Shown here piece by piece: positions 3,182 to 63,770 of a stretch of DNA of 64,000 bases; within the stretch, counting starts at the first letter, position 1; every line of letters begins with the position of its first letter. A program made the translations under genes and the position numbers. The notes beneath the pieces were generated by a model. It did no database searches. It was not told the DNA's origin and saw nothing but the letters and a program-made list of their open reading frames with translations. The stretch is taken from contig WHUZ01000076.1 in the NCBI GenBank assembly GCA_015179045.1, positions 186,001 to 250,000 on the forward strand, in the 5' to 3' direction. The DNA is from Kalaharituber pfeilii (lineage: Eukaryota; Ascomycota; Pezizomycetes; Pezizales; Pezizaceae).

Positions 3182-3387
3182 GTCTCATGCCCAGCCCCTA
3201 GGGCACTAAACAGCACCATATGTAGCTAAACCCCGCCATAGCCTATAAGGCGACACGCGAGTAATGAAATAAAAAAAAAAAAAAAAAAATACGGTCTGGT
3301 GACACCTTCCCGCGGAGTAGCCTCTTCGCCTCGATGCTGGCTTCCAACTCACTTTGAACATAATTCCTTATATCCTCAGCATTGCCT

Positions 3388-3443
3388 TCGCCATAGCCCC
3401 CAGGGCGGCACGCGAGTAATGATATAAAAAAAAAAAAAAAAAA
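3388..3443 (+). mobile_element. Solo tail-A insertion
   Basis: A 56-bp insert consists only of the tail-A hairpin, GCGAGTAATGATAT and poly-A. It is flanked by a perfect 12-bp duplication TCAGCATTGCCT (3376-3387 and 3444-3455). Removing it restores the NLR reading EARGNA-EDIRNYV. It is the cleanest case of a LINE integration that copied only the 3' recognition end. Confidence 0.92.
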
Positions 3444-3800
3444 TCAGCATTGCCTCGCGCTTCAATGAATATATGATAAATTTCTTGCATTCTGTCCACA
3501 ATTTCTACGTTATGGCGGCTGGATACCAATATTAGACTGAAACCTTCGATTTCTTCGTAATTGTCAAGAATAGGTCGAGAATGGAATGTATCGAGCTTTG
3601 CCCGCATTCAGCAAGAGCATCTAGGACAATAATAGGTTCTCGGTAGTACTCAACCAATTGGGTAATAAGGTTGATTGCTGCATCGAATGGAAGATGCTTC
3701 CTGAAAGCAGGATCTTTCTGCTCTTTCCCATAGGCTTCCTGTGCAGGTGCACAGATTGTCGTGCAGGAGATGCAAGCTGTCTAACTAGGGGAAGTAGATA

Positions 3801-4142
3801 GTGAGCGGCACGAGCCGAGCCAGCTCGAGCCGGCTCGAGCTCAAACGAGCCAAGATCATGCTTGTGTTTTTCTTGACAGCTCGCTAAAATGCTTAGCCAG
3901 TGCTAGGTTTCATAAACTGTAAATACCTAATATAAGTAATAATTAGAGGCTTGGAGCTCATTCTGACCTACCAACAACTTCGAAATGCACAATTTAGCTG
4001 ATAGTAGTGAGAAAGATGAAAATTTAGCTTAGTTTAGGTTAGTTTGTCAATATTATGTATATAATCAATCCAGGCTCGAGCTCATGCCACGCCAGCTCGA
4101 GCTCACCCTCCAGCTCGGCTCGAGCTAGCTCGTGCCGCTCAC
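3801..4142. repeat. MITE copy 1 (GTGAGCGG TIR, TA target)
   Basis: A 342-bp non-coding element has terminal inverted repeats GTGAGCGGCACGAGC, then GAGCTCGAGC-rich subterminal sequence and an AT-rich core, with TA on both sides. A second copy at 15851-16181 shares TIRs, core and TA flanks. It splits the NLR pseudogene between LQTLLL and LVRQLA. Confidence 0.9.
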
Positions 4143-4484
4143 TAGAAGTAGAGTTTGCAAGCTATCCCGACGGGCCTCCTCATCTCGCTTACAATACAGT
4201 AGAAGAATGAGACTTTGTCCACTCTCGGCTGTAAATGATCAAATGACAGCGGAACTACAAAGTGCAAACAAAGCTTTGTTAGTTTGCCTTGGGAACGCAG
4301 GATTGTGATCCTCACACTAACTTTGTCTTTCCAGCTGCCAGCTGAATTCGGACAATGAGCGATTCTCTATATAGACGATGGCAAGATCAACTCACGAGTC
4401 CGGGGTAACCATAAAATTTCCGACTGCTTTGATTCTAGCCAGAAATCCAAATTCTTGTCTCCGAACAGCCATTTTCTAGTACCC

Positions 4485-5430
4485 AGCACCACAGAAGCCG
4501 GGGCTTAGCCCCATCACGTGTGTACACACGGAGCCATCACCACCTCCACCGCCGGCGCCACCACCACCGCCACCACCACCGCCACCACCTCCACCAGCAC
4601 AGCCTCTGGGCCCAGCCCCATCATGTGCATAGACATCCCGCCGGCGCCACCCGCCGACCGGAAGGGGAAGGAAAAGGCGGACCCACCTGTGCCACGTGAC
4701 GGCAACACCTCCGGCAACAGGAAGAGGAAGGGGAAGACGCCCGCTCCCAATCAGCCCTACGAAATAAAACGCCGACTCAGCGATGAGGAGGCAAAAAAGA
4801 TCGCAGCTTCGGGAGCACCACCACCCGCACCGCCGTCACCCGCACCGGCACCACAGCCATCGCCGCCACCGGTGCCGGCACCATCATCACCGAACACACC
4901 ACCACCGTCGCCACCCAAGCCAAGACGGAAGCTTCCGACCCAGCAAGAAGCGTTCCGGCGACACCGTGCCACCACCAAGACCTCTGTCAAGACTGGAATC
5001 GTTGTACATGGGGTAGCATTGAGGAAGGATCTGGGGAACGTACAACGATGGCTGGTTGCAGACAACAAGGACCTGAAGAAGGTGGTTGGGATCCGTTGGT
5101 TGAGAAAGAAGGACCTACTAGTTGGAGAGGGGAAGAAGACGAGCTCCATAGTAGTTTATCTGGAAGACCAACAGGACATCGACAAGGTGCGACTCGGAGG
5201 AAGATGGTTGAAAGTGAGCCAGTACGAGGCGGATAGGGGACGGAGATGAGGAAGGAGATGAGACGGACTGGCCGCTCCCCTCGCAACACTATGTAAACTG
5301 CGGGCATCATGTATTTAAAGTTGCTTACTTCTTTCGTTCTTTTTGGAGTTTTTTAATAAAAACCCTCGCCATAGCCCTTAGGGCGGCAAGCGAGTATTGA
5401 TATAAAAAAAAAAAAAAAAAAAAAAAAAAA
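4485..5430 (+). mobile_element. ORF1-only LINE derivative with tail A
   Basis: This 5'-truncated element holds an ORF1-like coding region (4518-5249), a short 3' UTR with GCGGGCATCATGTA, AATAAAA, the tail-A hairpin from 5367 and poly-A to 5430. It sits between two halves of the NLR pseudogene. No target duplication is seen; instead about 9 bp of NLR sequence seem missing at the junction, so the exact 5' edge (4480-4495) is uncertain. Confidence 0.85.
4518..5249 (+). pseudogene. ORF1-like protein of non-autonomous LINE, 5'-truncated
   Basis: The open frame encodes 243 residues, but the true N-terminal reading (GLSPITCVHTEPSPPPPPPA) is in another frame, so it is frameshifted near 4600. The order is a Thr/Pro-rich stretch, GPSPIMCIDIPPAPP, KRKGKTPAPNQPYEIK with the following LSDEEAKKIA, a proline-rich linker, and a C-terminal globular block from GIVVHGVALRKDLG through VVGIRWLRKKDLL, KKTSSIVVYLE and VRLGGRWLK to RGRR-stop. 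The beta-alpha-beta pattern suggests an RRM-like nucleic-acid-binding fold as in LINE ORF1p (inference). No CCHC knuckle follows. Confidence 0.75.
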
Positions 5431-5691
5431 TTGTGCAAAATCATGGTGAGTTCGATATGGGATCTCAGAAAACCAGTGGAGGATCCTGATCTTCTCCGTA
5501 TCTAAGGCCCAGCCAGGAATAATATTTTGTGCTTCATTGAGAGAGCCACCAGTGGTGACACAGAATGCCTTCAACTTGTTTATACTTGGAAGTGACAAGG
5601 CTCTGAGATGGCTGTTGGCTGGATGCAGGGGAACTTGGAACTATATGACTGCGATCAGCCTTTTGAAAGGTTGCAAGAATAAATCTCTTTG

Positions 5692-5755
5692 TTTTTTTTT
5701 CTTTTCTTTTTGTTTTTTAAGTATTAGACGCGTACCGCCCTAGGGGCTACGGCGA
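5692..5755 (-). mobile_element. Short tail-A insertion, minus strand
   Basis: A poly-T run with interruptions is followed by AAGTATTAGACGCGTACCGC and CCTAGGGGCTACGGCGA, a diverged reverse complement of tail A (hairpin arms GCCC/GGGC kept). No target duplication is evident, so the right edge is uncertain. Confidence 0.6.
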
Positions 5756-5807
5756 CAGTTTAGTTACATAAGAGATAGAACCATCAGTTCAACGCGCTCT
5801 TCGTTAC

Positions 5808-6744: not shown

Positions 6745-6758
6745 TTACTTGGTAGCAG

Positions 6759-7212
6759 ACGATTCCCGGCTCCTTTCCTTGTTCTGTCCAAAAGATGTCG
6801 TCTCGCTTTATGGGCTTTTAGCACAGCAGGAATTCATCCCTTCTATCTTGGATCAACTGAAATTGGCTTTGCGAACTTGCAACATCAGTATTGTAACTGC
6901 ACGAGATGTGTTGGCTTGATGACCTGTGGAGTAATAAAGACATCCTTTTCGAGCGCGACGACTGTGGAAATCCACTGATCAACAGGCCCTACGTCCAGAA
7001 ACCGTTCCATTCACTTACCCGTAACCCAATCTAGCACTTCGATAAGCGGCGAGGATGTTTGGTCTTCAATTATGCTGGTTTCTAACAAGATGCTTCTCTC
7101 TCTCGGCATTGTTGTGCTTGAGATTTATCACTGGAAATATTTTGGAGTGTTGCAAGGCCAATTAACAAACGCAAACTATTGGATGATATATTTCATGTTG
7201 CAGGAGCGAAAT
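6759..7212. other. Gene-free stretch
   Basis: Pre-insertion host sequence lies between two retroelements. A plus-strand open frame (from 7072) reads LGIVVLEIYHWKYFGVLQGQ, but I recognise no family and see no start context or introns. Confidence 0.4.
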
Positions 7213-7223
7213 ATGGATTCGCA

Positions 7224-8575
7224 GTTTTTTTTTTTTTTTTTATTTTCACATAACCCCGCTTGCAGCTGTTCGCCATGGCAGGGTCCCTGGACCGAGGTCC
7301 TTATGGCCCGGAGACAGGCACCTAAAAACAAACAACAACTCACTATATACACCGATATTCAAAAGGGAATAGAGGAAATAAAACCCATGAGACAACCCGC
7401 TATGCCGTCAAGTCCATTTCCTCCACCTCCCTCCCCTTCCCCTTTCTGTCCACCTTTGAATTTCTATCCCAGTCATACAGGCACGAATCGTACCACTTGC
7501 CTGGCATTCTTACCTTCGCTGGTGTTTGGCTATCCGATTCCACCTCCCCATCCAGGTAGATGACAACCGAGCTAGCCTTCTTTCCCTCCCTCCTCTCTTT
7601 CTTCACCAACCATCTTGCCGCAACAATCTTTCCCATCCATGGGTTCGCATTCTCCATCCAATCTCTTACTTTCCCGAGTTTCTTTGTCACCGCAATTCCA
7701 TGTACTACGATCGCACGACTGGATTGCGGGAGTGTCCTTTCCTTTGGGATTGGCTTCGGAGATGGTGCTGGAGCTGGTTTCTTGGACATTTTCTGCTTGG
7801 GGGACTGGTACTCTGTCCCCCTTTCACTTTTTTGGACTTTGGAAAGCAGTGGACTTTGTTCGGCTTTTGGGTGGTGCCACCGGAGGTCGGTCAGAATTGT
7901 CCCCTTCCGGGGGTGTGCTTGGCGGGATGTTCTGGGAGACAACTGCTGCATATGACAGCTTTGGTGGTTTCTCCGGGTCAGTTTGTGATTCCCCTTCCTT
8001 TGAGGGTTTCCTCAGGTGTATATTGTGTATTTCTGTGCATGATTCCGTCTTCACCGCTAGTGCAAGAGCAGCAATGACGCGATGCACACTCCTGATTTCA
8101 CACAGGAACCTGTCTGTTGGTTCAAAGTTTGGTCTTGTCTTCTGGTCTTTTATGCAAGCATGTATGTGTTCGATGACATCCCCCACGGCATCAAGCATAT
8201 CGGACATATTGACTCCGCCGAGCCGATCTGCGATAGACTTGTACAGTGGGGCCTCAAGACGGGTACTCTTGGCTAGAGTTGTTTTGGCACCTACGGGCAT
8301 GTTTTTTGGTGCTGGGCTGCCCAATGCCATGAATCTATTGGTCGGATCCATGGTGGGAATGCCAAGAAGTCAGGGATGGTGGTGTGCTGGCAACGGAGTA
8401 AGGAGCTGAAAATTTCCTCAAAACTTAACCCCCAAGGGGGAAACTTGAGGAGTTGGGTTTTTTGGAATAAAAATTAAATCTAAAGACTCAGCGCACTGAG
8501 AGCTTTCGATCTATGTAGGTTTCGCTGGGGGGGACGCTGTGGTTGCGGAGTGGCTTCCGAGCGCTCGTCCTGTCA
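7224..8575 (-). mobile_element. ORF1-only element with 5' UTR and tail B
   Basis: Read on the minus strand, it starts with a 5' UTR (from about 8575; AGGACGAGCGCTCGGAAGCC, then a block also at 47798-48030) and continues with ORF1 (8351-7400), a short 3' UTR, tail B and poly-A (7225-7242). The flanks share ATGGATTCGCA (7213-7223 and 8576-8586). It appears close to full length at its 5' end because its UTR matches the element at 47798. There is no ORF2. Confidence 0.88.
7400..8351 (-). pseudogene. ORF1-like protein, one frameshift
   Basis: The start MDPTNRFMALGSP (8351) leads a predicted alpha-helical N-terminal region (SIADRLGGVNMSDMLDAVGD, then VIEHIHACIKDQKTRPNFEP) unlike the N-termini of other copies. 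A linker with LSYAAVVSQN follows. A frameshift in an A6 run near 7830 moves the reading to the second frame, which carries the shared C-terminal block: AIVVHGIAVTKKLGKVRDWM, IVAARWLVKKE, KKASSVVIYLDGE, RMPGKWYDSCLYDWDR. A 20-residue tail rich in Lys/Arg and Glu precedes the stop. One base change would separate it from an open ORF, so it is fairly young. Confidence 0.8.
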
Positions 8576-8586
8576 TGGATTCGCAT

Positions 8587-8738
8587 CATGGAGAAGTTCG
8601 CGGGCAATACATGTAGTTAGGGTTACGAGCTTTGTTGTTTGTGTGGTTGTTTATTTTTATTTTCATTAATAAAGACCCTCACCATAGCCCTTTGGGCGGC
8701 ATGCGAGTATTGATATTAAAAAAAAAAAAAAAAAAAAA
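8587..8738 (+). mobile_element. 3'-UTR-only insertion, tail A
   Basis: About 150 bp carry GCGGGCAATACATGTAGTTA, the 3' UTR motif shared by ORF1-only elements, then AATAAAGACCCTCACCATAG, a diverged hairpin and poly-A to 8738. TGGATTCGCA lies on both sides (8577-8586 and 8739-8748). The tail-B element at 7224-8575 sits in the opposite orientation directly against its left target copy. Confidence 0.82.
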
Positions 8739-8750
8739 TGGATTCGCAGT

Positions 8751-10231
8751 GACGAGGTGTATTGAAGGGTTGGATCATCGACCTAAGATATTAGCACATG
8801 TGAGATTTAAAAAATTGTGGCTCCATTGGAGGATTATCTGAAGCTTTTTTTTGAACAAGACTTGCAAGCCGTATTTACTTAAATGATTATTGTACCTACT
8901 TGAATTTTAGTCTTTAGCATGTGCATTGTCCATAATTACCTGTTTAATATCACACTCGCAGAGTAAGCCCATAGGAGGGTTTCGTTGCGGGCTCAATCGA
9001 CAAAGAATTGCTAGTAACTTGGGAATGTGAGTTTCAGTCTCCTTGTGACCAAAAAATCATGCCCTCCAACGGCATTGGGAGTTCAAGAATGCTTGTTACA
9101 GCCTCTAATCAGTGGATACACTCCTGTTATACAATGAGCTACTTGCATTGTGATGCCTCGCTATAGCCGTTGGGGGGGCCATGCGAGAAATGGGAAGAAC
9201 ATGCATTGCGAATAATATGAAGAAATCAAAGAAAACGAGAAGATTTGACTTGAGACTGAGTTGGAACTGGGCTACTTAAGTGAAAGCATTTGTCTGCTGA
9301 GTCGTGACTTGGCGGACGATTAGCTCAATTAGTGTCTTTTCCTATCTCTTATCAGTAAACACAAAACAGTCACTCTGACTCCTTCACCTCCCTTCCTCCA
9401 TGCTTTTTGCTAGCTTCCAAAGTTGGCTCGATCCCAACGTGCGTCATTCTTTAGCATTTTATATCAATACAGGGTATACATTAACCTCCTTGCTTCGGCC
9501 TCGTCCTCTGACTCCACGCTCCTCCACGAACAGCCTATGTCATTCAAAATGGTTATTCCATACCACTACAATCCTGCGAACCGCCATGTTCCTCCGCACC
9601 ATCGCCTGGGTGATTCTTTGAGTATCAACAATCAAACACCCTGCTACTATCGCAAGGGCCTTCAACGTACGTAAACTATTATGTATCAAACTCTAGTACT
9701 CTAGAGAAAACATTAACAGCAAACGTCAGCGTCGATACGACCCATAAGAGCCAATTCTCATTGGACACTGCCATATCACCACAATCCGCTTAACCGCGAG
9801 CTGCCGCTGCACCATCGCAATGTTCCATTGCAACATTCCAATAGACGCGAAACTTCAATTCTACAACCTCTTCCGAAGACGAATCACACATCGAATTCTC
9901 ATGTGTCCACGGAGGAACTCCAGCAGCTACTAGGCATATTGCAGAAGATTGGTATGGAGACATTCTCCGTTCAGCTCTACACTACCAAAAGACTTAGGAT
10001 GCTAATAGTTTATTACAGGCCAGAATGGGAAGGGCGACCCAAGTGACAATCCCATCAGTTCGGGGAGCGATTCAGAATCCGTGCGTGAAAAGCGCTGAAA
10101 AGGAATTTATCACGGGCATTCAGCGGAAGAAATGATAATTCCGTTCTCATCATGTACAGTACAGTCCTTACTTTGACATCATTGCGAGCGTTGTACTTTT
10201 TTAGTTTCTTAAATCAGAGTGAGAGTCAATG
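8751..10231. other. Gene-poor stretch with a degraded tail A
   Basis: No gene is supported. Bases 9157-9200 (CTCGCTATAGCCG, then GGGGGGGCCATGCGAGAAAT) look like an old tail-A relic without a poly-A. Short open frames at 9400-9674 and 9828-10046 show no recognisable protein. Confidence 0.4.
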
Positions 10232-10241
10232 GCAAAGGTCG

Positions 10242-13200
10242 TTTTTTTATTTATTTTTTATTTCATTACTCGCATGCCGCCTGGCAGGCTATGGCGAGGG
10301 TTAGATACATGATAGATGGATGAATAATGAAAATATGGACTATGAGTAATGGATAGATGAAAAATTAAGAATAAACGTAAGGAAGATTACTCTGCCGCCC
10401 AATCCAACACCCCGCCAGTGTTCTTCCCTCCTCCTCCTCCGATCTTGACAGCTCTTTCAACCCGCCTCTCCTCTCGGTAGTCTTCTCTTCCACGTCTCAC
10501 ACTCGTTCATAATATGTTCGAAGTTCTCGAGGTCTTTGCCGCACCATCTGCATTCGGGTGAGGTGTCCCTTCCTATTTGATGTCTCCACTGTCGTAGCCC
10601 TTGTTCCCCAGGATTCCTGCGAGCGTGGCTACCTCCTCCTGATCCCAGGTATTCCAGTGGCCTGTACGACAGCTGCAATCTTTTCCTCTCTTCGGCTCTC
10701 CCCTCTTTGGCGTGTTGTCTCATGCCCGCCTCGGTCACTGTCTCGTCTTGATATTGCATTGCCGTGGCGATTTTCGCCGCCATGTCCGCCCTGGTGTTGC
10801 CTTCGACCTCTTTGTGCGCCTTCACCCATAATACCGCTATGTCGCGGTCCCCCGGGCTGTCCTCTCTTCCCACCGCCTCCTTACGGACCTTGCGGGTCCC
10901 TCCAGTGTTGGGTCTCCCTTCGCTATCTTTTGCATTCTCGCTATGGTTACCCTGGAATCCGTGATGACTAATAGCTCCCCTTCCCTCCCTAGAGCTTCCC
11001 CCACGGCTATTAATTCCGCGTCGTTCACCGTGCAGCGCACTCCCAGGTATACTGAGGTGTCTGTGCTGCCCTGGTGTACTCCGGCACCCGTTTTGTCTTC
11101 TACCCTACTCCCATCAGTGTATACGCTCGACCACCCTTCCCCCTCCTCCCTGGCAATGATGTCCTCCCAGTCCTCTCTGCGGAGGTCCTTGGGGTGAAAC
11201 GGGTGTACGTGAAGTGGTAGGGGGTCACAGTGCTTGAGCGATCCTCTCATGTACCTGGTGTCTGGTTGTGGGTCCCTGATCGGCTCCTCTCTGAACCTTA
11301 GCGCTCTGGCTTCTACTCTCTCCACCTCCCCGCTGACAAACGCCTCGACCGATTCCAGATTCGACAGGCTCTCCACCATGTCTCTCCACATTCCCCATGG
11401 GCCCCGGTTATCTCCCTGGCCACCCCATACTGCTATTTCTCGAGCTGTCAAAGTTTGTACTCCGCAGGGGCGCCTTGAACGTAGCTCGCCCATGCCCAAC
11501 TGCCCCAGGTCGCTATGTTCCTGGCAATGCTTGTGTATAGTTGTCTTCTTCTGGCTGGTGGTAACTTGTGTAGCCGGGATACTACCCGCCATGCCGCCTT
11601 CCCCAATTGTAATCTCCTGTTGAAGTGGTCATCGAATTTCATTTCCCAGTTGATGTACAGTCCTACCAGCCTGTAGCTTTGTCCTTTTGTGCCTATAATG
11701 ATGGTTTCGGTCTTCTGGAAGTCCAACTCGAACCCTTCCTCCAGTGCCTCCTCGGTCAGTTTCGCACGGTGCTCTCGTATGTCCTTTTTCAGTTGTTTCA
11801 GCGACTTATTACGCTGTGAAAGTCATCCACGTAAGATCTGGAGAACCTCGTCTGTCTGCTTTCTCTGCCACTGGGGCTATCCCCATGAGGAAGGGTGCCG
11901 GGGATAGAGGAGATCCTTGAGGTGTTCTATCGGTCATTCTGCTCTCTCCCCTAATCTTCCCATCCCAGGAGACCTGAAACTTAGTCGGTTGTAGAAAACC
12001 TTCCACAAATGTCGCTATGTTCGGATCGATGGTCTCAATTCTTCTCACCACCTTCTCCCTCCGTAGGTGGTTGAAGGCTGATTTTATATCATCCCCGACT
12101 ATCGCCATCCACTCGTCTCTCTGGAGTCTCCTGTCTACCTCCTTCAGCACCTGTCTCTGTAAGTCCTCCACTCCCCGCATCGGTCTGCCTCCCAGCTGGG
12201 TTTGTCTAAACAGTTCGTCCCGCCTTTGGATGAGGTCGGCTACTACCTTCTGGCCCAGCTTGGCTACTGTGTTCAACAGAGTGATTGGTCTCCAGCCTGC
12301 TGGATCGTCCCTTGGTCTGCCCTTCTTGTGTATCATTAGAACGCTAAACCCCCTAGCAAACTGATAGTTCCCGTTTATGTATTCGACAATCTCTTCTCTG
12401 ACCGCTGTCCAGAGTGTGGACTCCTTTAGGATCTTCAGGATTCCATACTGTATACCATCCGGACCTGGTGCTGACTTAGATTTTGTCTTCATCAGGGCTT
12501 TGTCTATTGCCTGTCTTGCTTCTTCTCTTTCAATGAGTAGCCCGGTTGGAGTCCCGGTGTTCTGTTTCTCGTTGGGCTCCACTGTGACGAAATTTCGCTC
12601 TATTAGCGCCTCCATGATTTGCTGGTCTGTACCCGGGATATCCATAAGCTCGCGCTCTCTGAATGGGTCTCGTGCCAGTCTGAATATATCCCACGGTGAC
12701 ATTATTCTGTCTTATTCCATATACTCCTCCCAGTACGTCTTCTTCTTTTCCCTTATGATGTCTCTCAACAGTCTCCTGGCTCTTGTTTTCTCCTGCCGTG
12801 TGTTCCCCTTCCGCAGTATATATTTCACCATTTTCCGCGCCGCCTTTACTTCTTTGTCGAACCATCTCTTTGAATGTTCCGTGATGTGTGCGTCCTTCGT
12901 GAATGTTTGACTCAGCCTGACTAGTAGTTCGTACGCATTGACATCCTTCTTCAGTAGCTTGTCTCCCCATTTCTGTACGAAGTCCTCCCATCTGTCCCAA
13001 TCCATTAATTTCATGGTTCTGATGACTGGACTGTGAGTCTTTAGTCGTCCGTATATCATCGCATGGTCTGCCCCAGCTATCCACATGATGCCCCTGGTCT
13101 TCCATTCGCCTCGTCTTACAAACACTAGGTCCAGTATGGCCGTCCTCGGTGTACCCTCGACCATCCATGTCCACGTTACTGTCCCTTTTGGGATTTGTTG

Positions 13201-13545
13201 TTCGAGTCCGTGAGCCCAGAGGGTATCCCTTAACACGGTTCCTCTTTTGTCCCTCTTATTGCTCCAATCATCATGATGGCTGTTGCAGTCTCCGATTATC
13301 ATGTCTGAGTCCCCTATCTCTTCCAGTTCCTCTTCCACGTCCGTGTCGCTGTTCCAGTATACTCCAGTTATCTTTCGTCCCTGCAGGTAAATGCTTACAT
13401 GCCGGTTTCCCCTTCGCACCCTGATGTCTTGAACTAAGTGTTTCCGTGCATACGCCGCAATCATCCCCGTCCGACCTGGGGTGTGTATTGTAGTGAATGC
13501 AGGGTGAAATGTGGTTCCTCCTCCCGGCGCTCTCCAACGTTCTCC
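10242..13545 (-). mobile_element. LINE, longest ORF2 copy in the window (tail A)
   Basis: Flanks share GCAAAGGTCG (10232-10241 and 13546-13555). Read on the minus strand it enters within the endonuclease domain and runs through RT, RNase H and CCHC to DWAAE-stop at 10389, a short 3' UTR, tail A (arms GCCT/AGGC) and poly-A. ORF1 and the start of ORF2 are missing by 5' truncation. The domain order AP endonuclease, RT, RNase H, CCHC is that of I/Tad-like clades (established knowledge). Confidence 0.92.
10389..13545 (-). pseudogene. LINE ORF2 (endonuclease-RT-RNase H-CCHC), decayed
   Basis: Endonuclease: GTTFHPAFTTIHTPGRTGMI, MIIGDCNSHHDDWSN, TWTWMVEGTPRTAILDLVFV, GADHAMIYG, with the catalytic Asn, Asp and His contexts visible. 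An in-frame TAA follows EEYME (12712). RT: KSAPGPDGIQYGILK, FSVLMIHKKGRPRDDPAGWR, GDDIKSAFNHLRR, TPQGSPLSP. The catalytic box SYVDDFHS is in a shifted frame near 11850. Then RRRQLYTSIARNIATWGSWA and a TGA where another copy has Arg (AEYKL-stop-QLEKW). RNase H: SVYTDGSRVEDKTGAG, NDAELIAVGEAL, LLVITDSRV, a frameshift near 10850, then VLWVKAHKEVEGNTRADMAA. CCHC: CRWCGKDLENFEHIMNEC. At least three frameshifts and two stops make it inactive. Confidence 0.9.
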
Positions 13546-13555
13546 GCAAAGGTCG

Positions 13556-14193
13556 CTGCTAGCTTGTTTCATGATTTGAGATCTCAATTGCTCTACACTC
13601 CGCTCACGTCACCTTGTCGCGAAAAAGATGGGTTAATCATGTCATGTATGTACTATGGTGATAAGCAATTTAAAGAGTCAGACACCGCTCGCTGAATTCA
13701 ATCTCTTTATTGCTGCCGCTTTTTCATCGTATGCCAAGCTACCTATGGTGAATGATTGTAGGCAAAACCTTGGCAATCCTGGTCTCCCGAGCCTGTACCA
13801 TATAGACAGCCTCTGTCACAGCTTCTACGAACTACCTTAACTTTTCCACCTCCCTCTCCTGCAGGGCACGCTACCCCTTCAGCTCCTCCTCTGACGGGGC
13901 CTTCCGCACTATCACACCTCTGCAACCTTCCTTCCCGCGCGACACTGCCTCTTCTGCGTCTCACACAGCCTACAGGCATCCTCACTGCTCCAATCTTTGT
14001 CAACCAGTTTCTCGATGGGCCCTTCCCATTCAGAAGCCACATGAGCCCTCTCACACTCTTTCTCCACCGCCTTGGGATACCCGCCTTTCTGTGCCTGACG
14101 CCCTCCTCTCGGGGCTGCCTGCTGTCGTATATGCTCCTCCGTAAGGAATGCCTGCTGACATTATACGAGTGGGAGGGTCTGCGAGGGCTGCTT
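13556..14193. other. Unassigned stretch with Cys-rich coding relic
   Basis: Minus-strand frames between about 14150 and 13860 read HVASEWEGPIEKLVDKDWSS, then EDACRLCETQKRQCR, with frame changes. It resembles part of a small Cys-containing protein common in repeats, but I do not recognise it. No intact gene is visible. Confidence 0.35.
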
Positions 14194-20607: not shown

Positions 20608-22289
20608 GTAGACCGTAGATGGAGACCAGCACACCGGAGCGAAGATGTGCGGGCGCCAAGCGGACAGCGAAGGAGGGATAGGGAGGGCGTCGCATCCCGG
20701 AGTTGCACTACCCGATATGCCTGCGATAATTATAATTGACCGTTACCGGAGGCGCGTGACTAACCACCGCGAGTGGGATGTGAGGGGCCTTTTTTTATTT
20801 TTATTTTTTAATATCATGCAACCCCGCTTGCAGCTATTCGCCATGGCAGGGCGATGTGAGCGACTTCGCGGGTCCTTCGAGCTAGCACGAGTATTGTCAG
20901 TAGAGTGAACGCTTAGAAATAGCACGCATGACGCCATTTATACACTTATCCTTTCCCCAGACACCCGCCACTCTGCACCCTTCGCAGCAGCAAGCCGCCG
21001 TGGACCTCTCAAGCGGCTGCTTCCTTTGAAGCTCTCAACAGTGACTAAAGTACCTTCCTTCAACTTTATTTTATTGCTCTCTACCTGCTCCAGCTTTAAT
21101 CGCATGCTGGGCGTGACGTTCTGTCAGTACTCGGCCCTCGATTTCCGGAGGGTCAAGTACAACTTGATCCTATGGTGCTAAAAGCTTGCGGTAGAGGTAG
21201 CTCATAAGGGGGTTCTAAAGTTAACAGCTTGTGATACATGCCTTCCATTCCCCACGACCTAGGGCTTTTATAATTTAGTTTTAGCATTAGCTACGCTAGA
21301 ATAGATCTTGGGGAAGTGAATGTTCTCGTGCCCAGACTCTGGAAGCGGCCTAACCTCAGCAGGAAACGACGGCCTCCCAGATAAGCAGCGCACGGAACCT
21401 TATAAGGAGCGTGACTCACTACCAGCGCCAAGGACCTGAAGAGCCGTACAATGTACACTCACTCTGGTTGGTAGCTCCTTCTCGCCTCGTGAACCTACCC
21501 TATTAGGAAATGCCAATCTCGGGTCAGCCGCAACATCTATCTACAGCATCCGCCTCCTCTTCCCTCCCTTTGCTGTTCTTCTCCGTCCCTTCCCTTCTCC
21601 TTTGTTTCCACTCCCTCGTCTCCGTCTTCTCTCCGATTGCCGTCCGCTCACAGCTGCCCCCCATCTAGTCCACCTCCGCCTTTCTCCTGCTCCTGCTATA
21701 GCATGAAACGATCAGACAAGAGCCTCACATCCTCGTAGGGATAGTGGTCTTCATCTACAGCCCACTCTTATCCAATTGCAGGCAGGCAAGGGGCCATTAT
21801 CGCCACTTTGCCCCCTTTCTGCAGGCACAACCTTGCCCAAATCATATCCTGCCGCCGCTGCGTACAGCAACCACCAGCAAGTTGCCACTCCCCTCCTCTG
21901 CTCCCCCCTTCGCCTCCGTACCCTACTTTGGCTCGCTAGATTCGAAAACGAACCTTGGCGGGTACTTAGAATAGCTAATGGATATGTTGATAATTCTTGT
22001 TATAACCCTCCAGCCAGACACCCCGGGAAGCGGCCGATAGGTCTGGACCGGTAAAGCGGGCATGATACATTCGCATGCACAACTACTTTGACGCACAAGA
22101 GGATTGTATTGAAAACCGGAATGGCATATCCGTGAAGAAGCTGTTATTACGGTCTTACAAAAAGCATCACCAAGGAAAGGGTAAGCTGAGGAGCTAAGGA
22201 GAACATCAAACATTTCGAGACCCATAATGGCACTTTTTCTTTAAGTGTCTTTGGAAAGCTGGTGCCAAATGTATTACACAACTGGGCCG
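20608..22289. other. Gene-poor stretch with a possible solo tail B
   Basis: At 20785-20852, poly-T-rich sequence followed by AACCCCGCTTGCAGCTATTC and GCCATGGCAGGG is a minus-strand tail B; GATGTGAG (20777-20784 and 20853-20860) may be its target duplication, though a GGGCC separates one copy from the T-run. I find no supported gene in the rest; pyrimidine-rich sequence spans 21540-21690. Confidence 0.5.
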
Positions 22290-26014: not shown

Positions 26015-26025
26015 AAAACCTGAAA

Positions 26026-26094
26026 CATTCCCTGCCATAGGCTCGTAGTCTTTATGCGGGGTTACGTGACATAAAAAAAAAAAAAAAAAAAAAG
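26026..26094 (+). mobile_element. Solo tail-B insertion
   Basis: The insert holds only a diverged tail B (CCCTGCCATAGGCTCGTAG, TGCGGGGTTACGTGACAT) and poly-A, between copies of AAAACCTGAAA (26015-26025 and 26095-26105). Confidence 0.8.
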
Positions 26095-26443
26095 AAAACC
26101 TGAAAAGACAATGCTACTATACTCCTTACTTCGCCCATGCTAACACCTCTGCCAACGCTCTCCTTACTGTCGCGCTTCAGTGTAGTCTCGGCAACCAACC
26201 CTAACCCACTTGTGTAGAAAGATTATCAACTTATGCTGCTATTTTGACTCGGCTTGTTTATTTGTTTTATCATATTTATTGTATTTTATTCTCTCCTATG
26301 CACCTAATGTAGTCATAGCCCCAGGGTGATATACAAGTATATGAGAAAATAGACTCTAGCTTCAGTGTTGCAAGTGCCTAAAAGGGAAGTAGAGATGCCA
26401 AGCACCCGTAATAAGTATGGTCTATTTTACGACAGAGCAAGTT

Positions 26444-28266: not shown

Positions 28267-28337
28267 TGCATCAGCGGGGAATCGAACCCCGGTCGAATCG
28301 ATGGCAACGATTCATCATACCACTGGACCACTGATGC
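28267..28337 (-). tRNA. tRNA-Gly (GCC)
   Basis: A 71-nt cloverleaf folds on the minus strand. The acceptor GCATCAG pairs with CTGATGC, with discriminator A. The D arm contains the A box TGGTCCAGTGGTA, the anticodon stem GAATC/GATTC holds loop TTGCCAT with anticodon GCC, and the T arm carries GGTTCGATTCC (B box). There is no intron, as is usual for this isoacceptor. T-rich sequence follows its 3' end (TTTTTTTT near 28250 on the minus strand), suitable as a Pol III terminator. A pogo element starts 89 bp upstream of its 5' end. Confidence 0.95.
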
Positions 28338-36390: not shown

Positions 36391-36632
36391 CCGAAGCAGT
36401 CATTATAGGGATCATTCCCACTTTTCTTATATCTCTATGAGCTCCATATAATAATAGCAAGCTGTGTACTTATTTCCACCACTTGCATTGATGCATTTAG
36501 ACATTATTGATGGTAGTTTACTTATTTCCTTATTTATATCCTCCATTCTAACATTATTCCATTCCTATATAAAACCACTTTCATCTGCTCTACTGTAACA
36601 ATCCTTTCCAACGGTTGCACATTTATCTTGTG

Positions 36633-36667
36633 ACCCTGCCATGGCCAAGTGCTACAAGCGGGGTTAT

Positions 36668-36698
<31 letters not shown>
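36633..36698 (+). mobile_element. Solo tail-B insertion
   Basis: A 66-bp insert is made only of tail B (CCCTGCCATGGCCAAGTGC, TACAAGCGGGGTTATGTGAT) and poly-A, within a perfect 14-bp duplication ACATTTATCTTGTG (36619-36632 and 36699-36712). Confidence 0.92.
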
Positions 36699-36699
<1 letters not shown>

Positions 36700-36712
36700 C
36701 ATTTATCTTGTG

Positions 36713-45268: not shown

Positions 45269-45284
45269 GTGTGGTTTGAATTCT

Positions 45285-45330
45285 CGCCATAGCCTTTAAG
45301 GCGGCATGCGAGCAATGATATAAAAAAAAA
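45285..45330 (+). mobile_element. Solo tail-A insertion, older
   Basis: Only the hairpin (arms GCCT/AGGC), GCGAGCAATGATAT and a short A-run are present. Flanks GTGTGGTTTGAATTCT (45269-45284) and GAGTGGATTGAATATCT (45331-45347) look like a diverged target duplication. Confidence 0.72.
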
Positions 45331-45681
45331 GAGTGGATTGAATATCTTGGCGTACATCGGTAGAGCGAGTGTGCGGTGTAAACTAAGAAATACGTTTCCG
45401 TGGCGAATGAAAGGGTCTTTGGCGGCTGTATTAATTTCGGAACAGACGGCGGCTTAGGGCGGATTAAGTTGGTGTAGGCGATATATGGCTTTTCAAGAGT
45501 AACAGTATAGACATGTGCTCGAAGTCAGAGGAATGACTTGATTAGTATATTATTGGCATCCTCGCTCCCTCCATCAACAATCGAGTCTGGAACTGGGCTG
45601 CTAAACAATGTACAAACAATTCCATCCAATCCTGACCTCAAATCCAAAACCAGCAGCTACGGTACGATACACTCACCAATC

Positions 45682-47414: not shown

Positions 47415-47426
47415 TTTGTATGTGAT

Positions 47427-47490
47427 TTTTTTTTTTTTTTTTTTTTTATATTTCATTACTCGCTTGCCGCCCGACGGGCTATGGCGAGGT
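47427..47490 (-). mobile_element. Solo tail-A insertion, minus strand
   Basis: A 64-bp insert: poly-T, TTTCATTACTCGC, hairpin (arms GCCC/GGGC) and GGCGAGGT only. Perfect 12-bp duplication TTTGTATGTGAT (47415-47426 and 47491-47502). Confidence 0.92.
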
Positions 47491-47797
47491 TTTGTATGTG
47501 ATACAGTACAGAAATTCTATATATACTAGCATGTGGCCACCTCGCAACCGCGAGGGTAGGTGCGAGGCTAGCGAGGGTGAGTGTAGGTGTAGCGGTAGTG
47601 GATAAGGGATCGTTGTAGCCCCGTAAAGTCGGCATCAAGTGACTGCACACTCTTTACCAGTTCCACAACCGTACAATCTCGTTTCTCTGCATTTATTCAT
47701 ATCAGTATATTCTTATTGTTATTTATAATATTACGTAATCCAACTCCTGTATCTAGGGAGTTCTACTACCAAATGTAGTTTCAGAAGGTTAATTGTA

Positions 47798-49306: not shown

Positions 49307-49438
49307 TTAGGTAAGCCTGCCTCCGGGCTTTGAGGGTTTAGACCCAGGGGCCCTGCCTTGGCGAACAGCTGCATGCGGGGTCACGTGATAATAAAAAAAA
49401 AAAAAAAAAAAAAGGGTTAATTGTATATATTTTGTGGA

Positions 49439-49488
49439 TAGAAATATGCCCTGCCATGGCGAACAGTTGCAAGCGGGGTTACGTGAAA
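49439..49488 (+). mobile_element. Solo tail-B insertion
   Basis: A 50-bp insert (CCCTGCCATGGCGAACAGTT, GCAAGCGGGGTTACGTGAAA) lies in a perfect 15-bp duplication TATATATTTTGTGGA (49424-49438 and 49489-49503), directly beside the duplication of the preceding element. It has almost no poly-A. Confidence 0.9.
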
Positions 49489-49503
49489 TATATATTTTGT
49501 GGA

Positions 49504-55100: not shown

Positions 55101-57074
55101 GTTTTAGACAAGTCTCTTAGAGTCATTCGCTTTGCGCACTTGTCCGTACAAGAATATCTAGAAACAAGGATTAATGGGTGGAGTGTTTTGGACGCTCAAC
55201 TTCTTGTCGCTGAGGCTTGTTTATGGATCGTCCAGAGGTATGGGAATATGTTAAAAGACTCCGAGGATAGCTCAGACTGGGATTGCTTAGACACGCATAG
55301 CTTAGGCGACGATTGCTTAGACACGCATAGCTTAGACGAGGATAGCTTAGACATGGATAGCTTAGACGATGATAGCTCAGAAGTGTACAAGGACCACTTA
55401 GAAGAGAACAAGAGTGTGCAGCACCAGCAAATTCTCTATAGGTACTCTGCCAGCTACTGGTTTAAACACTGCCGGTCTTATCAGTGTTTAATTACGCCCT
55501 TACCTGCAGCCAATACAACAGCAGCTGCTTCATGGCATCCTCGGGAACTCAAATTGCTGCACAGCTTCTTGGGTTCTTTAAATGCCCCAAGTGAAGCTTA
55601 CGTGAAGTGGGTAAAATCGTTAGAGCGGATGGATGAGGGGCAGATAAGGTGGTCAGTGATATCAACCCCGTTACGACCAGTTTTTGCTGCGGCAATGGGT
55701 GGCCTGGGAGAGTTGATTAGCAGGCTGTGGTCCTCAGAGGAGATCAATGTGGATGAACGGAACAGTAGCAATCAACCCCTGCTTAATTTGGCTGCTATGA
55801 GTGGAGAAACATGGATAGTAAAACAAATGCTGGATCGAGGGGCTAATGTGAACGCTGCGAGTGGCAAGTATGGAACTGCCCTAGGTACAGCTGCACGCGG
55901 GGGATATAAGGAAATTGTCACACTCCTGCTGGATCGAGGGGCTGATGTGAACTCTGCGGGTGGTGAGTATGGAACTGCCCTGGGTGCAGCTGCATTCCAG
56001 GGGCATAAGGAAATTGTCACACTCCTGCTGGATCGAGGGGCTGATGTGATCTCTGCGGGTGGTGAGTATGGAACTGCCCTGGGTGCAGCTGCACGCGGGG
56101 GATATAAGGAAATTGTCACACTCCTGCTGGATCGAGGGGCTGATGTGAACTCTGCGGGTGGCAAGTATGGAACTGCCCTGGGTGTAGCTGCATTCTGCGG
56201 GCATAAGGAAATTGTCACACTCCTGCTGGATCGAGGGGCTGATGTGAACTCTGCGGGTGGTGAGTATGGAACTGCCCTGGTTATAGCGGCATATCAGAGA
56301 GATAAGGAAATTGTCACACTCCTGCTGGACCGAGGTGCTGATGTGAACTCTGCGGGTGGCGAGTATGGAACTGCCCTGGGTGCAGCTGCATACAGGGGAC
56401 GTAAGGAAATTGTCACACTCCTGCTGGATCGAGGGGCTGATGTGAACTCTGCGGGTGGCGAGTATGGAACTGCCCTGGGTGTAGCTGCATTCTGGGGATA
56501 TAAGGAAATTGTCACACTCCTGCTGGATCAAGGGGCTGATGTGAACTCTGCGGGTGGCAAGTATGGAACTGCCCTAGGTGTAGCTGCATTCCAGGGGCAT
56601 AAGGAAATTGTCACACTCCTGCTGGATCAAGGGGCTGATGTGAACTCTGCGGGTGGCGTGTATGGAACTGCCCTGGGTGTAGCTGTATTCTGGGGGCATA
56701 AGGAAATTGCCACACTCCTGCTGGATCGAGGGGCTGATGTGAACTCTGCGAGTGGCGTGTATGGAACTGCCCTGGGTGCAGCTGTATTCTGGGGGCATAA
56801 GGAAATTGTCACACTCCTGCTGGATCGAGGGGCTGATGTGAACTCTGCGGGTGGCGAGTATGGAACTGCCCTGGGTGCAGCTGCATTCTGGGGGCATAAG
56901 GAAATTGTCACACTCCTGCTGGATCGAGGGGCTGATGTGATCTCTGCGGGTGGCGTGTATGGAACTGCCCTGGATGCAGCTGTATCCAGGGGACATGAAG
57001 AAATTGTCAAAATCCTGCTGGATCGAGGAGCCGATCCAAGTCCTACTGTCCCGAAGGTATCATCCCACCCTTGA
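52183..57074 (+). CDS. NLR-type STAND protein: NACHT with C-terminal ankyrin repeats
   Basis: Proposed exons: 52183-52360, 52405-52895, 53017-53245, 53320-53433, 53502-53531, 53591-53686, 53754-53927, 53986-54010, 54071-54655, 54767-57074. All junctions keep frame and give 1409 residues. Basic Ser-rich N-terminus (RDWFLKPFRRDDRSRSPSRS), then an NWD/NACHT-N-like region (VHESLPAEVKRILVDCG, DPVHAALPWAGVRFILQ, MERITMLISQGTIYEQLYL), Walker A GAGKTKL (about 439-445, on a 25-nt exon), Walker B IIVLDALDEC (535-544), VLVSSRHS (569-576), a winged-helix-like part (LGKLPKDLTEVYQEIMTSIK, FAHLSVQEYLE), an Asp-rich repeat and 12 ankyrin repeats (about 978-1400). Fungal NLRs of this type act in non-self recognition or programmed death (established for the class; role here inferred). 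The only doubtful junction is the 44-bp first intron; otherwise a frameshift in C-runs at 52423-52440 would be needed. A related pseudogene lies at 162-5690. Confidence 0.88.
55265..55400 (+). repeat. Asp-rich 30-bp tandem repeat inside the NLR
   Basis: Three-plus units of GATTGCTTAGACACGCATAG with CTTAGGCGAC-like ends encode DCLDTHSLGD, DCLDTHSLDE, DSLDMDSLDD. The repeat sits between winged helix and ankyrin parts and gives a strongly acidic linker, about residues 808-853. Confidence 0.85.
55778..57045 (+). repeat. Twelve near-identical ankyrin repeats (99-bp units)
   Basis: The 33-residue unit KEIVTLLLDRGADVNSAGG, xYGTALGxAAxxGx recurs twelve times, nearly identical at DNA level outside a few codons. 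Variation concentrates before YGTAL (E/K/V), after it (G/V/D, A/V/T/I) and in the turn before KEIV (RGGY, FQGH, FCGH, YQRD, YRGR, FWGY, SRGH). Those turn residues face the ligand groove in ankyrin folds (established). Confidence 0.92.
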
Positions 57075-60158: not shown

Positions 60159-60212
60159 TTTGTTCTAACATCATTAATCTCGTGCCGCCCTATGGGCTAT
60201 GGCGATCCAACT
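60159..60212 (-). mobile_element. Solo tail-A insertion, minus strand, no A-run
   Basis: CATTAATCTCGTGCCGCCCT and ATGGGCTATGGCGAT form a clear hairpin end with only a short T-rich remnant instead of poly-T. Flanks GTCCGGATACTTTTG and GTCCGGATACTTCTG (60144-60158, 60213-60227) fit a 15-bp duplication with one mismatch. A third GTCCGGATACTT at 60353 means it may also be a local repeat. Confidence 0.65.
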
Positions 60213-60407
60213 GTCCGGATACTTCTGACATAATAAAATTGGACACTATCCACGAAATTTGGACTGGTCTCATAAACATCCACAGCTAAGCATACGAAAA
60301 TATGCTAGTTTATGCCAACTACTGCATAGCGCATGATATGCATTTATCCCCTGTCCGGATACTTATTTTTCGGCTGGTAGAACCTCTGCAACCGGGCAGG
60401 CTAAGTA

Positions 60408-61056: not shown

Positions 61057-61149
61057 TAGTCTACAGTCCCCTGTCGATACCTCTGCATGCGGGCAGGCCA
61101 GACTAGCCTGCCCGGAGAGGTCCCGAGCGCAATGAATCCAACAGGCCGT

Positions 61150-61330
61150 GATCTGCATTGGACTGAAACCCCCTGGACCAGCCTGGACCGACCTGGACCG
61201 GCCTGATCCACATGAATCAGGCCAACCAGGCCAGTCCAGGCCAACCAGGCCAGTCCAGGCCAACCAGGCCAGTCCAGGCCAACCAGGCCGGTCCAGACCA
61301 TTCAGGCCAGTCCAGGCCAGTTCAGGCCAA
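61150..61330. repeat. Minisatellite CCAGGCCAACCAGGCCAGT
   Basis: Units of 18-19 bp recur about eight times (strict from 61208 to 61285, diverged GGACCGACCT-type copies before). No gene context. Confidence 0.85.
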
Positions 61331-61650
61331 TTAACCAAATGACTCCACAGCTACCCAGGTGAATTGAGGCCAGCATTTACCAGATTGTTTGAGTATTTAA
61401 ATGAGTAGAATCTCTCGTATATCTAGAATTTTAAACAGCATCGGTCTACGACTTTTGTCAAGTATGTATCACTTTGTATTCAAGTATATATACTAAGAAA
61501 TATTTTAGAAATGATGGACCTTCCAGATAATACAACAGACGGGACTCAATTCTTCGATGATGATACCTAATGCGCAACTGTCAATTACTGATAGCGGAAA
61601 TATCCAGGACTATTGAAATCTAATTCACCTGGGTTAAATTCTAAAATCGC
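61331..61650. other. Gene-free stretch
   Basis: AT-rich, nothing recognised. Confidence 0.4.
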
Positions 61651-62059
61651 TTGAATTTACGTAAATGGCCTGGCCTGTTGGATTCATTGCATGAGAGTAG
61701 GCATGAGCGTTTGTTCTTCTGCACGGAGAGAGGGGGTCCTATCACCAATTTCGGTTGTTGCACACTTCGTGAGCTACAGGCACACATTGAGAAGCTACAG
61801 GCACACATTGAGAAGAGACATTCCAGCCCACAAACCACAGCCGGGGGTTCCCCGCTTTTCAGCGACCCCGGGCAACAAGGTATGCGAGCTTACATGAGCC
61901 ACGACCAGTGTCATCGCACTCGAGAGATGGAATGCAGCAAAGGACCAGTATTGGAGGAATATAGAAGGTTGCATATGGGGTTGTTGCAGCAGCATCTGCA
62001 GAGAGAGAGGGAGTATCAGGAGAGGATGTTGGCAGAGAGGCAGAGAGAGGCAGCGGAGA

Positions 62060-62123
62060 TTTTTTTTATTTTTTTTATTTTTATTTCATTACTCGCATGC
62101 CGCCTGATAGGCTATGGCGAGGT
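62060..62123 (-). mobile_element. Solo tail-A insertion, minus strand
   Basis: 64 bp, T-rich run, TTCATTACTCGCATG and hairpin (arms GCCT/AGGC). Perfect 13-bp duplication GAGGCAGCGGAGA (62047-62059 and 62124-62136); removal restores the charged helix. Confidence 0.92.
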
Positions 62124-62311
62124 GAGGCAGCGGAGAGAGAGGCATTGGAGAAGAAGGAGAAGGAGAGAAGGAAACGGGAGATGAGGGAGAAGGAACAGAC
62201 AGAGGCGAGGGAGAAGCGGGAGAGGGAGCTGCAGGAGATGTGGCAGGGGGAGAGGGAGCTACGGGAAAGGGAGCAGCGGGGAAGGGCGATGAGGGAGAGG
62301 GAGATAAGGGA

Positions 62312-62366
62312 GAATCACCCTAACCCACACGGCGGCATGCGATCACTGATGTTAAAAGAAAATAAA
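62312..62366 (+). mobile_element. Diverged solo tail A
   Basis: ATCACCCTAACCCACACGGC, GGCATGCGATCACTGATGTT and AAAAGAAAATAAAATA replace part of the charged helix. The repetitive GGGAGAG flanks hide any duplication. Confidence 0.65.
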
Positions 62367-62566
62367 ATATGGGAGAGGGTGGTGCGGGAAAGGGAGCAGC
62401 GGGAGAGGGAGCAGCGGGAGACGGCGATGAGGGAGAGTGAGATAAGGGAGAGGGAGAAGCACAAGGCAATATCGGAGACCAGAGGGTCTGGTGCGCCGCG
62501 GCCGCAGGTGATTGACTTGTCTCGGGATTCAAGCTCGGTGGTGGGGATTCAGTCGATGGTAGATCA

Positions 62567-62623
62567 CCTCGCCGTAGCCCACAGGGCGGAATGCGAGTAA
62601 TGATATAAAAAAACAAAAAAACA
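62567..62623 (+). mobile_element. Solo tail-A insertion
   Basis: 57 bp with hairpin, GCGAGTAATGATAT and A-run. Duplication ATGGTAGATCA (62556-62566 and 62624-62634). Removal restores the reading IQSMVDHGPAGRDRPQVVER. Confidence 0.92.
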
Positions 62624-63181
62624 ATGGTAGATCATGGGCCTGCTGGTAGGGATAGGCCTCAGGTTGTGGAGAGGGACATTTTGCGTGCTTACTCCGATCC
62701 ACGGGAGCAGCATAGGATGGATCAGGCGAGGGAACAGGAGAAACGGCAAACAATATTGGTGGAGGACTCACGAGATCCAAGAGCGATAGCTGAGCAGGCT
62801 GAGAGGGCTAGGCGTGAAAGGGAGTGGGAGAGGAGCAGGATGATGGAGATCGAGCATCAAAGGGCTGTAGGCCAACCAGGGACAAGGCCAATGTCGGCTG
62901 CGGGTCATAGTACGCCAACTGGGATTGCTCCTCCGCAGACACATTTGCACCATTCTGCTCCTCAACAGCCGACACCATCGCAAATGCGTCACGAAGAGTA
63001 TCTGCCGCCAAGTCAGCCGGCAATGGAGCAGAGGCAGCAACATCCGTTCTCCACGTCGTATGCAGGCATTTCAAATTTGCCGGGCGCGAACCCGCACTCC
63101 CCCGGAGTGCAGTCACCCTCGAAGCCATTGCCCTCTTCCGCGTATCAGACGGGGTCGCCGGGTCCAATGGGGAGCAGTATA

Positions 63182-63243
63182 TATTTTTTTTTTTTTTTTT
63201 TTATTTCATTACTCGCATGCCGCCTGACAGGCTATGGCGAGGG
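63182..63243 (-). mobile_element. Solo tail-A insertion, minus strand
   Basis: 62 bp; T-run, TTTCATTACTCGCATG, hairpin (arms GCCT/AGGC). Perfect 13-bp duplication GGGGAGCAGTATA (63169-63181 and 63244-63256). Removal restores MGSSIGYYQGERY. Confidence 0.92.
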
Positions 63244-63770
63244 GGGGAGCAGTATAGGTTACTACCAGGGAGAGAGATATTGAATCCGGCACATCCGGAT
63301 AATGATCGGTCAAGGTTGTATTCATTGCAAGGGTGGCAGTACCCACCAGGTTACCACCATTCTTCGAGATCCAACGCGTACACACCATCGCCGAACCCCC
63401 GCCGCATCATCAAGTGCAGCAGCAAGGCCCACCACCAAAGCATCATTACCAACAGGGACAGCCAGGACCTCCGAGTCCACCGCCAACGCCATATGAGCCA
63501 TGACCCCTCTCCCCCTCTGCCGCAATCACACCATCAACAGCCTCCGCCTGGCCAACTAGGCCCGCACCCATCGCAAATGCAGCAGCGAGGCGGTCATCCA
63601 ACCGGCTCTCCACCATCGTTAGTGCCGGCATCACCATCACAAGGTCCGCTGTTCCCCCGCGCCGCATATGATGCCCAGCCTGATTTATGGGCCGCCTCAG
63701 ATGGGGATGAGGCGGCAGGGGGACATGAGTATTTGGAGAGGTAGGAGGAGATAAAGGGCATGAGGGGCCT

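Follow-up and report, generated by a model that had tools for sequence, protein, structure and literature searches.

How can a retrotransposon insertion come to hold only the last few dozen nucleotides of its parent? The question is raised by a 64,000-nucleotide stretch of the Kalaharituber pfeilii genome (contig WHUZ01000076.1, positions 186,001 to 250,000, forward strand; hereafter the window, from whose first letter positions are counted), in which short inserts, here termed solos, carry just the 3' tail of a long interspersed nuclear element (LINE), of one of two types: tail A (CTCGCCATAGCCCNNNGGGCGGCAYGCGAGTAATGAWATAAAA) or tail B (CCCTGCCATGGCGAACAGCTGCAAGCGGGGTTACGTGAAATAAAA). The insertions are of the target-primed reverse transcription (TPRT) type, and their 5' ends lie at the feet of stable RNA stems, in both tails and at two stems of tail B. 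From this pattern it is fairly probable, if far from certain, that each solo arose by target-primed insertion of an RNA whose 5' portion had already been trimmed away, leaving a stable and probably protein-held hairpin plus poly-A, which suggests that pieces of partly degraded RNA may themselves be mobile.

Tail-only inserts form a separate length class

Seven inserts in the window for which a preliminary description, made from the window alone, had reported perfect duplications are all genuine, with target-site duplications (TSDs) of 11-15 bp. Tail-A solos lie at 3376..3455 (plus strand; insert 3388-3443, 56 bp; TSD TCAGCATTGCCT, 12 bp, at 3376-3387 and 3444-3455), 47415..47502 (minus; insert 47427-47490, 64 bp; TSD 12 bp), 62047..62136 (minus; insert 62060-62123, 64 bp; TSD 13 bp), 62556..62634 (plus; insert 62567-62623, 57 bp; TSD ATGGTAGATCA, 11 bp) and 63169..63256 (minus; insert 63182-63243, 62 bp; TSD 13 bp). 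A solo of tail-B type occupies 36619..36712 (plus; insert 36633-36698, 66 bp; TSD ACATTTATCTTGTG, 14 bp), and a tail-B solo 49424..49503 (plus; insert 49439-49488, 50 bp; TSD TATATATTTTGTGGA, 15 bp), the latter with 10 extra nt 5' of the hairpin and almost without poly-A. Five further sites had been put forward less firmly. One of them is sound, a tail-B-like solo with a differing inner stem (26015..26105, plus; insert 26026-26094; TSD AAAACCTGAAA, 11 bp; 4 extra nt), and the others are weak: a probable tail-A solo with an imperfect duplication, about 11/13 by eye (site 45285; 45283..45332, plus), the 26444 site (8-bp duplication), the 46120 site (about 6 bp, by eye) and a tail-A piece at 60159-60205 that has no poly-A, sits inside an inverted repeat and has GTCCGGATACTT-like repeats on its flanks; a small DNA transposon may have captured it. 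A probable tail-B solo is also present at 20777..20860 (minus; insert 20785-20852; TSD CTCACATC, 8 bp).

To place these inserts in a genomic context, the 78.0 Mb assembly (360 contigs) was searched with exact patterns of the tail 3' halves only, so that no condition was set on the 5' end. The patterns, both of which themselves require 7 A, found 1099 tail-A and 574 tail-B sites, and a reversed control pattern found 0. From the first 100 sites listed for each pattern, 60 A and 60 B were taken; these 120 come from the first contigs and are not random over the genome. To these were added all tails with E <1e-5 from two regions, the window itself (22 A, 9 B) and a 200-kb block of contig 13 (24 A, 21 B), for a total of 196 tails, 106 of tail A and 90 of tail B. 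Left out before counting were tail matches with E >1e-5, A/B overlaps, 20 tail-A sites from a full-hairpin pattern (about 7/20 solos by eye), 8 loci of an earlier fetch, five tail-A places already fetched and two tail-B places (one of them in the block). The TSD finder accepted a duplication score of at least 9 within 220 nt and requires an A run, for which reason it misses 49439.

Solos account for 29/106 tail-A copies and 44/90 tail-B copies (18 A and 32 B within the 60 + 60 pattern sites), where the 29 take in the window copy at 60205, without poly-A, and the 44 count a segmental duplicate in the block (52948/64016) twice, leaving 43 distinct TSDs. Their lengths are 52-72 bp for A and 49-76 bp for B (43/44 measured), and the duplications flanking the 73 solos are 9-16 bp long. 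When flanks were swapped (106 A and 90 B rows in five rounds, 980 in all), a duplication turned up anywhere in 14/980 controls and at the solo position in 0/980; target-primed insertion thus accounts for the duplications, as had been proposed. Poly-A is found at the 3' junction of the solos, with 49439 and 60159 as exceptions. TSDs within about 7-20 bp, 3' poly-A and the presence in the genome of a tail-A LINE with endonuclease and reverse transcriptase (RT) are together the TPRT traits of an APE-type LINE.

The starts of tail-A inserts fall into a dense group at -3..+7 of the hairpin base (29), with 5 inside the hairpin, 1 at 16 and 15 in the class of 41-220 nt (all of them at 75-179); for tail B the corresponding counts are 44, 1, 2 and 1. 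No duplication within 220 nt was found for 56/106 A and 42/90 B, most of which read as long copies, about 10 of the 42 also being without recognisable upstream element sequence (by eye). If the in-hairpin starts are set aside, copies whose TSD lies within 220 nt begin at -3..+7 in 29/45 cases for A and 44/47 for B (binomial against uniform, 3e-27 and 4e-54). In the window and block, the longer copies that have a far duplication measure 297 nt-3 kb (A) and 1.05-1.55 kb (B), apart from two doubtful far matches (6171 and 7361) that are probably not TSDs. Short solos are therefore a separate length peak, and the peak at 50-65 bp foreseen in the preliminary description is present; neither a genome-wide lack of duplications nor a smooth length distribution devoid of a tail-only peak, the two outcomes it had named as contrary to its view, was encountered. 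Chance, or ordinary smooth 5' truncation, could draw on the scattered truncations that tail-A copies also show, out to several kb, but is rejected by the flank-swapped controls, the binomial values and the length distribution, and we give it a negligible probability.

As a separate matter, the tail sites of the 2.99-Mb contig C1 are strongly compartmentalised: 17 tail-A and 8 tail-B sites all lie within its first 0.56 Mb (for tail A by itself, p 3e-13 under a uniform distribution), and other patterns list single tail-B sites at 0.76, 1.1, 1.7 and 2.6 Mb.

Insert starts and the feet of RNA stems

A conserved 3' stem-loop of the kind seen in stringent-type LINE tails is present in tail A, and tail B folds as well. 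Tail A adopts the fold CTCGC....GCCC...GGGC.....GCGAG, in which 97% of 531 cells are paired over 59 distinct sequences, as against 55% or less with slid partners. Compensatory changes are found at two of its nine pairs, the outermost (CG 45, AU 8, UG 4, GC 1) and the loop-closing one (CG 38, UA 19, UG 2), and 28 cells show changes on both sides, where shuffles give 8.1 (0/500 as high). Tail B has a 7-pair base, GCCCTGC/GCGGGGT, and the long tail-B copies of family 2 carry, ahead of the tail hairpin, a hairpin 1 (AAGCCTG CCTC CGGGCTT) 38 nt upstream and a weak GGGTYTAGACCC stem (hairpin 2). The window holds the 3' end of one such element, with all three stems and poly-A, at 49311..49413 (plus; limits approximate), and this is the template type of most tail-B solos. 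A motif like TGTAYYTAA also recurs some 10-17 nt 5' of the tail-A hairpin in otherwise differing long families (by eye) and is absent from solos.

The starts follow these stems closely: 25/29 tail-A solos begin 0-4 nt before the outermost hairpin pair, and 39/44 tail-B solos begin 0-4 nt before the CCCTG at the hairpin base. A second tail-B class starts at the foot of hairpin 1, and was represented in the first sample by two copies, at offsets 38 and 39. Sites of the form AAGCC..CCCAG number 158 in the genome, with the long element's TAGRT in front of 58. The first 20 listed without TAGRT in front, two already known being set aside, were fetched; 13 show a duplication in the stretch, with starts at -1..+2 of the AAGCC base in 12 cases and at 15 in the remaining one, and the other seven look element-linked, with other letters in front. 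Since this selection favours starts near AAGCC, the set shows only that such copies are common, at about 64/158 if the 14/22 rate holds for the rest.

A set free of that bias came from a search for starts at hairpin 2, in which the first 85 sites listed were compared and 73 have the hairpin-1 arm (by hand); the remaining 12 are one block site, with a hairpin-1 variant, and 11 that were fetched, picked by their variant hairpin-1 arm and not by the sequence in front. Duplications resolve six of the 11, five starting at 38 or 39 and one at 88 (p 8e-8 against uniform). The weak hairpin 2 yielded no start, whether in these 85 sites or in the 47 tail-B copies counted above (TSD within 220 nt). Hairpin 2 was accordingly rejected as a third stop: ten of the 11 candidates carry a hairpin-1 variant and one (L190) an apparent worn remnant, and none starts at hairpin 2. 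One hairpin-1-class insert (L178, C34:9757-10021) has 15 T separating its duplication from AAGCC, an appearance that A-tailing of the cDNA end would produce.

Calculated stabilities, for four example sequences, separate used from unused stems at the RNA level, with -14.2, -12.9 and -7.8 kcal/mol for those used and -3.4 for the unused one. The corresponding cDNA values are -6.2 (tail A), -2.0 (tail B), -2.9 (hairpin 1) and -2.1 kcal/mol (hairpin 2), and for tail-B cDNA 199/200 shuffles fold at least equally well, because U-G pairs of the RNA turn into mismatches in cDNA. As the used stems are stable as RNA and are not distinguished as cDNA, the boundaries fit RNA structure better. It is on this point that a trimming of long cDNA, cut or chewed back to a cDNA hairpin, can be judged: such trimming would likewise give ends at stem feet, and tail-A cDNA does fold, but tail-B cDNA hardly folds and yet gives the strongest peak, and hairpins 1 and 2 are about equal as DNA whilst only hairpin 1 is used. 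We consider this route very improbable, and a fold-back of the cDNA is disfavoured on the same evidence.

Trimmed templates and their alternatives

On the mechanism that we favour, transcripts of LINE type would be worn down from the 5' side, by a 5'-3' exonuclease or by cleavage next to a stem, until decay was halted at a stable stem, probably held by LINE protein. The protein would then carry a 35- to 75-nt RNA with poly-A to the nick, where RT would copy the trimmed RNA completely and run off its end, at times with the addition of an untemplated nucleotide, before the cDNA was joined to the target. In its general form, that LINE machinery retroposes RNA decay intermediates, fragments with 5' ends fixed by stable 3' stems and as small as a 35-nt hairpin plus poly-A, we regard the proposal as evenly balanced between true and false. 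The account of R2 transgene assays in PMC11331408 includes two relevant points: insertion benefits from a stable fold at the template 5' end, for which a block to 5'-3' exonucleases was proposed, and 5' degradation was suggested to be limiting. Stringent LINE proteins are described as binding the 3' stem-loop (PMC4176376), and by analogy a bound protein could hold the stem here.

The closest competitor has RT start on full-length RNA, copy the poly-A and hairpin, and let go just past a stem held by its own tail-binding region. This would give the same end point for the tail hairpin and look identical in DNA, and abortive inserts evidently do integrate: five tail-A inserts and one tail-B insert start within the hairpin, three of them no more than 2 nt from the near side of the inner stem, a classic site of RT stops, and such inserts look like true RT stops. 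Against it, RT is resisted on entering a stem and not on leaving it, and a second hold point would be required for the second class, whose hairpin is other than the terminal recognition one. A trimmed template is favoured because 5'-3' trimming meets the stem foot first, whereas RT meets the 3' arm first and the foot only once the stem is open. For the inserts as a whole we judge release by RT unlikely, though still deserving of serious attention. Of the two options offered in the preliminary description, short tail RNAs as substrates hence fit better than RT falling off after the tail, since the outer foot comes within reach of RT only once the whole stem has been copied and since the next stable hairpin has a class of its own, although the in-hairpin starts retain a place for the latter.

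The 5' junctions offer a further, less decisive view of the template end. At least one nucleotide not seen before CCCTG in the sampled long-copy templates is carried by 16/44 tail-B solos, often T at -2. Comparable extra nucleotides were found in 0/12 ordinary or in-hairpin truncations (hand-judged: L049, L056, L059, L130, L135, L051, L068, L091, L099, L110, window copy 8678 and block copy 173523), which include the in-hairpin tail-A inserts L051, L068, L091 and L099; counting the ambiguous block copy 111425 makes this 1 of 13. R2 RT adds nontemplated nucleotides at template ends (PMC8857657), and in human L1 14.6% of 5'-truncated copies carry extra nucleotides (PMC2912911). Untemplated additions suit a template end better than release within the template, if weakly, and the extra nucleotides lean, not strongly, towards run-off. 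A cap-derived G before CCCTG was considered and dropped, as G also stands there in the long family-2 template and A in long family-1 copies.

A dedicated small tail RNA, transcribed as hairpin plus poly-A from one or a few genes, would make solos a true minimal short interspersed nuclear element (SINE). Some tail-B subtypes are mostly solos, and genome-wide T occupies -2 in 214/504 GCCCTG-type sites where sampled long copies have G. Set against this, the 29 tail-A solos hold about 21 loop variants (in an 8-nt window, a few variants being shifted by indels), 13 of which also occur among 71 other, longer copies. This speaks against one small-RNA gene and for the RNAs of many families as the probable tail-A source; one master small RNA is disfavoured for tail A on the same ground. 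Long-copy counterparts of the tail-B subtypes exist: 698 sites match the full-hairpin pattern, and 294 match a nearly equal one containing the CAGGGR of the long copies, numbers consistent with solos making up about half. No RNA polymerase III promoter in a tRNA-, 5S- or 7SL-like head was found in the inserts, which start at the hairpin about 35 nt before the poly-A, a length into which a promoter does not fit. At gathering threshold, Rfam gives a single match in the window, a tRNA at 28267-28337. We think a dedicated RNA improbable, and the earlier likening of solos to a minimal SINE is only half right, since it fails over promoter room and, for tail A, probably over a single source. A ribozyme at the hairpin foot was also rejected, the window having no Rfam ribozyme at that threshold; tail B presumably has no room for a hepatitis delta virus (HDV)-like fold.

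Several points weigh against template trimming. Hairpins this simple and small do not usually stop Xrn1 alone, and so a bound protein must be assumed; for hairpin 1 that partner is putative. The longer tail-A truncations (75-179 nt; 15/106), when folded, show no obvious start at stems. The contrast in extra nucleotides is weak (16/44 against 0/12, p 0.012; against 1/13, p 0.08), and some of those in tail-B solos could come from an unsampled source. For tail A, two of the five covariation measures, the count of pairs altered on both sides and the count of further pair types, do not exceed shuffles (394/500 and 79/500 as high, respectively), and the tail-B RNA fold is not clearly beyond composition (25/200 shuffles equally good), covariation having been measured for tail A only.

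A last observation concerns the bodies of the long tail-B elements, which differ in sequence and share the last 39 nt before the tail, diverging approximately at the hairpin-1 foot; trimmed RNAs would be expected to end at this divergence point. It is only an idea that template jumping, from such a fragment's 5' end to another RNA, might swap bodies or share tails.

Neighbouring elements and wider meaning

A LINE ending in tail A occupies 10251..13608 on the minus strand, with Pfam matches in separate open frames to an endonuclease (Exo_endo_phos_2, 12712-13608), a reverse transcriptase (RVT_1, 11809-12711) and RNase H (RNase_H, 10837-11628); the reverse transcriptase of the window LINE has six hits, of which the only named one is a Kalaharituber pfeilii protein at 66% identity over 44% of the query. 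Beside such RT-bearing tail-A elements stand short elements at 4509-5412 and 7232-8440 (minus), each with tail A or B and an ORF1-like frame only, without Pfam match, that are perhaps non-autonomous ORF1-only elements; for the second, a long tail-B element (7232..8440, minus; upstream limit by eye), it was the tested open reading frame (ORF) that gave no Pfam match. At 7202-8752 an antisense tail-B element lies back to back with a short sense tail-A piece, with ATGGATTCGCA present three times (left end, middle and right end), an arrangement attributable either to two insertions at one site or to one double-primed event. Elsewhere, 54015-57074 carries two ORFs in succession, the first NPHP3_N (NACHT-like) and the second holding about 12 near-identical 99-bp ankyrin repeats (55828-57035), resembling a fungal NOD-like receptor (NLR) gene, and 29386-30531 (minus) a Tc5/DDE_1 transposase-like ORF.

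Tail-only LINE insertions with a fixed 5' end were not found reported in the open-licence literature searched. TPRT, stem-loop tails and short TSDs are already known; what appears new, within that literature, is the frequency of sharply bounded hairpin-only insertions and the second class at the next stem. The stringent LINE tails of zebrafish ZfL2-1/ZfL2-2 and eel UnaL2, and the SINEs sharing them, likewise have a 3'-terminal stem-loop before the end repeat, described as protein-bound there (PMC4176376), but in those systems the tail is part of longer elements, whereas in the present genome a hairpin with nothing but poly-A attached often inserts by itself, its 5' end narrowly set. Solos share TPRT, TSD and poly-A with 5'-truncated copies of human L1 but, where the truncation points of L1 are scattered, solos keep to a single narrow 5' end at the foot of a stem. 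SINEs, like solos, are short and non-autonomous and carry a LINE-type tail and a TSD, but are headed by tRNA, 5S or 7SL sequence; solos, at about 35 nt plus poly-A, have neither head nor internal promoter and probably no single source. Exonuclease-resistant viral decay RNAs (sfRNA) embody a similar idea, a 3' fragment of defined extent left where structure halts a 5'-3' exonuclease; by comparison, the stop here would be a simple stem, probably protein-bound, the fragment would be retroposed, and the decay itself is inferred.

LINE 5' truncation is usually ascribed to RT dissociation or junction formation, from which the use of degraded templates is hard to tell. Here the ends coincide with RNA stem bases almost to the nucleotide, a pattern seen in both tails and, within one of them, at two stems, and a weaker stem that is not used provides an internal control; the question of template trimming is therefore directly testable. 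If the proposal is true, solos are a genomic record of where decay stopped, and a 35-nt hairpin plus poly-A would be among the smallest mobile RNAs known, indicating a lower size limit for a retroposon. There may also be a route here by which LINE families acquire one another's tails, as jumping from a fragment 5' end could, again if the proposal is true, explain both the tail common to unrelated bodies and the tail-B body switch at the hairpin-1 foot.

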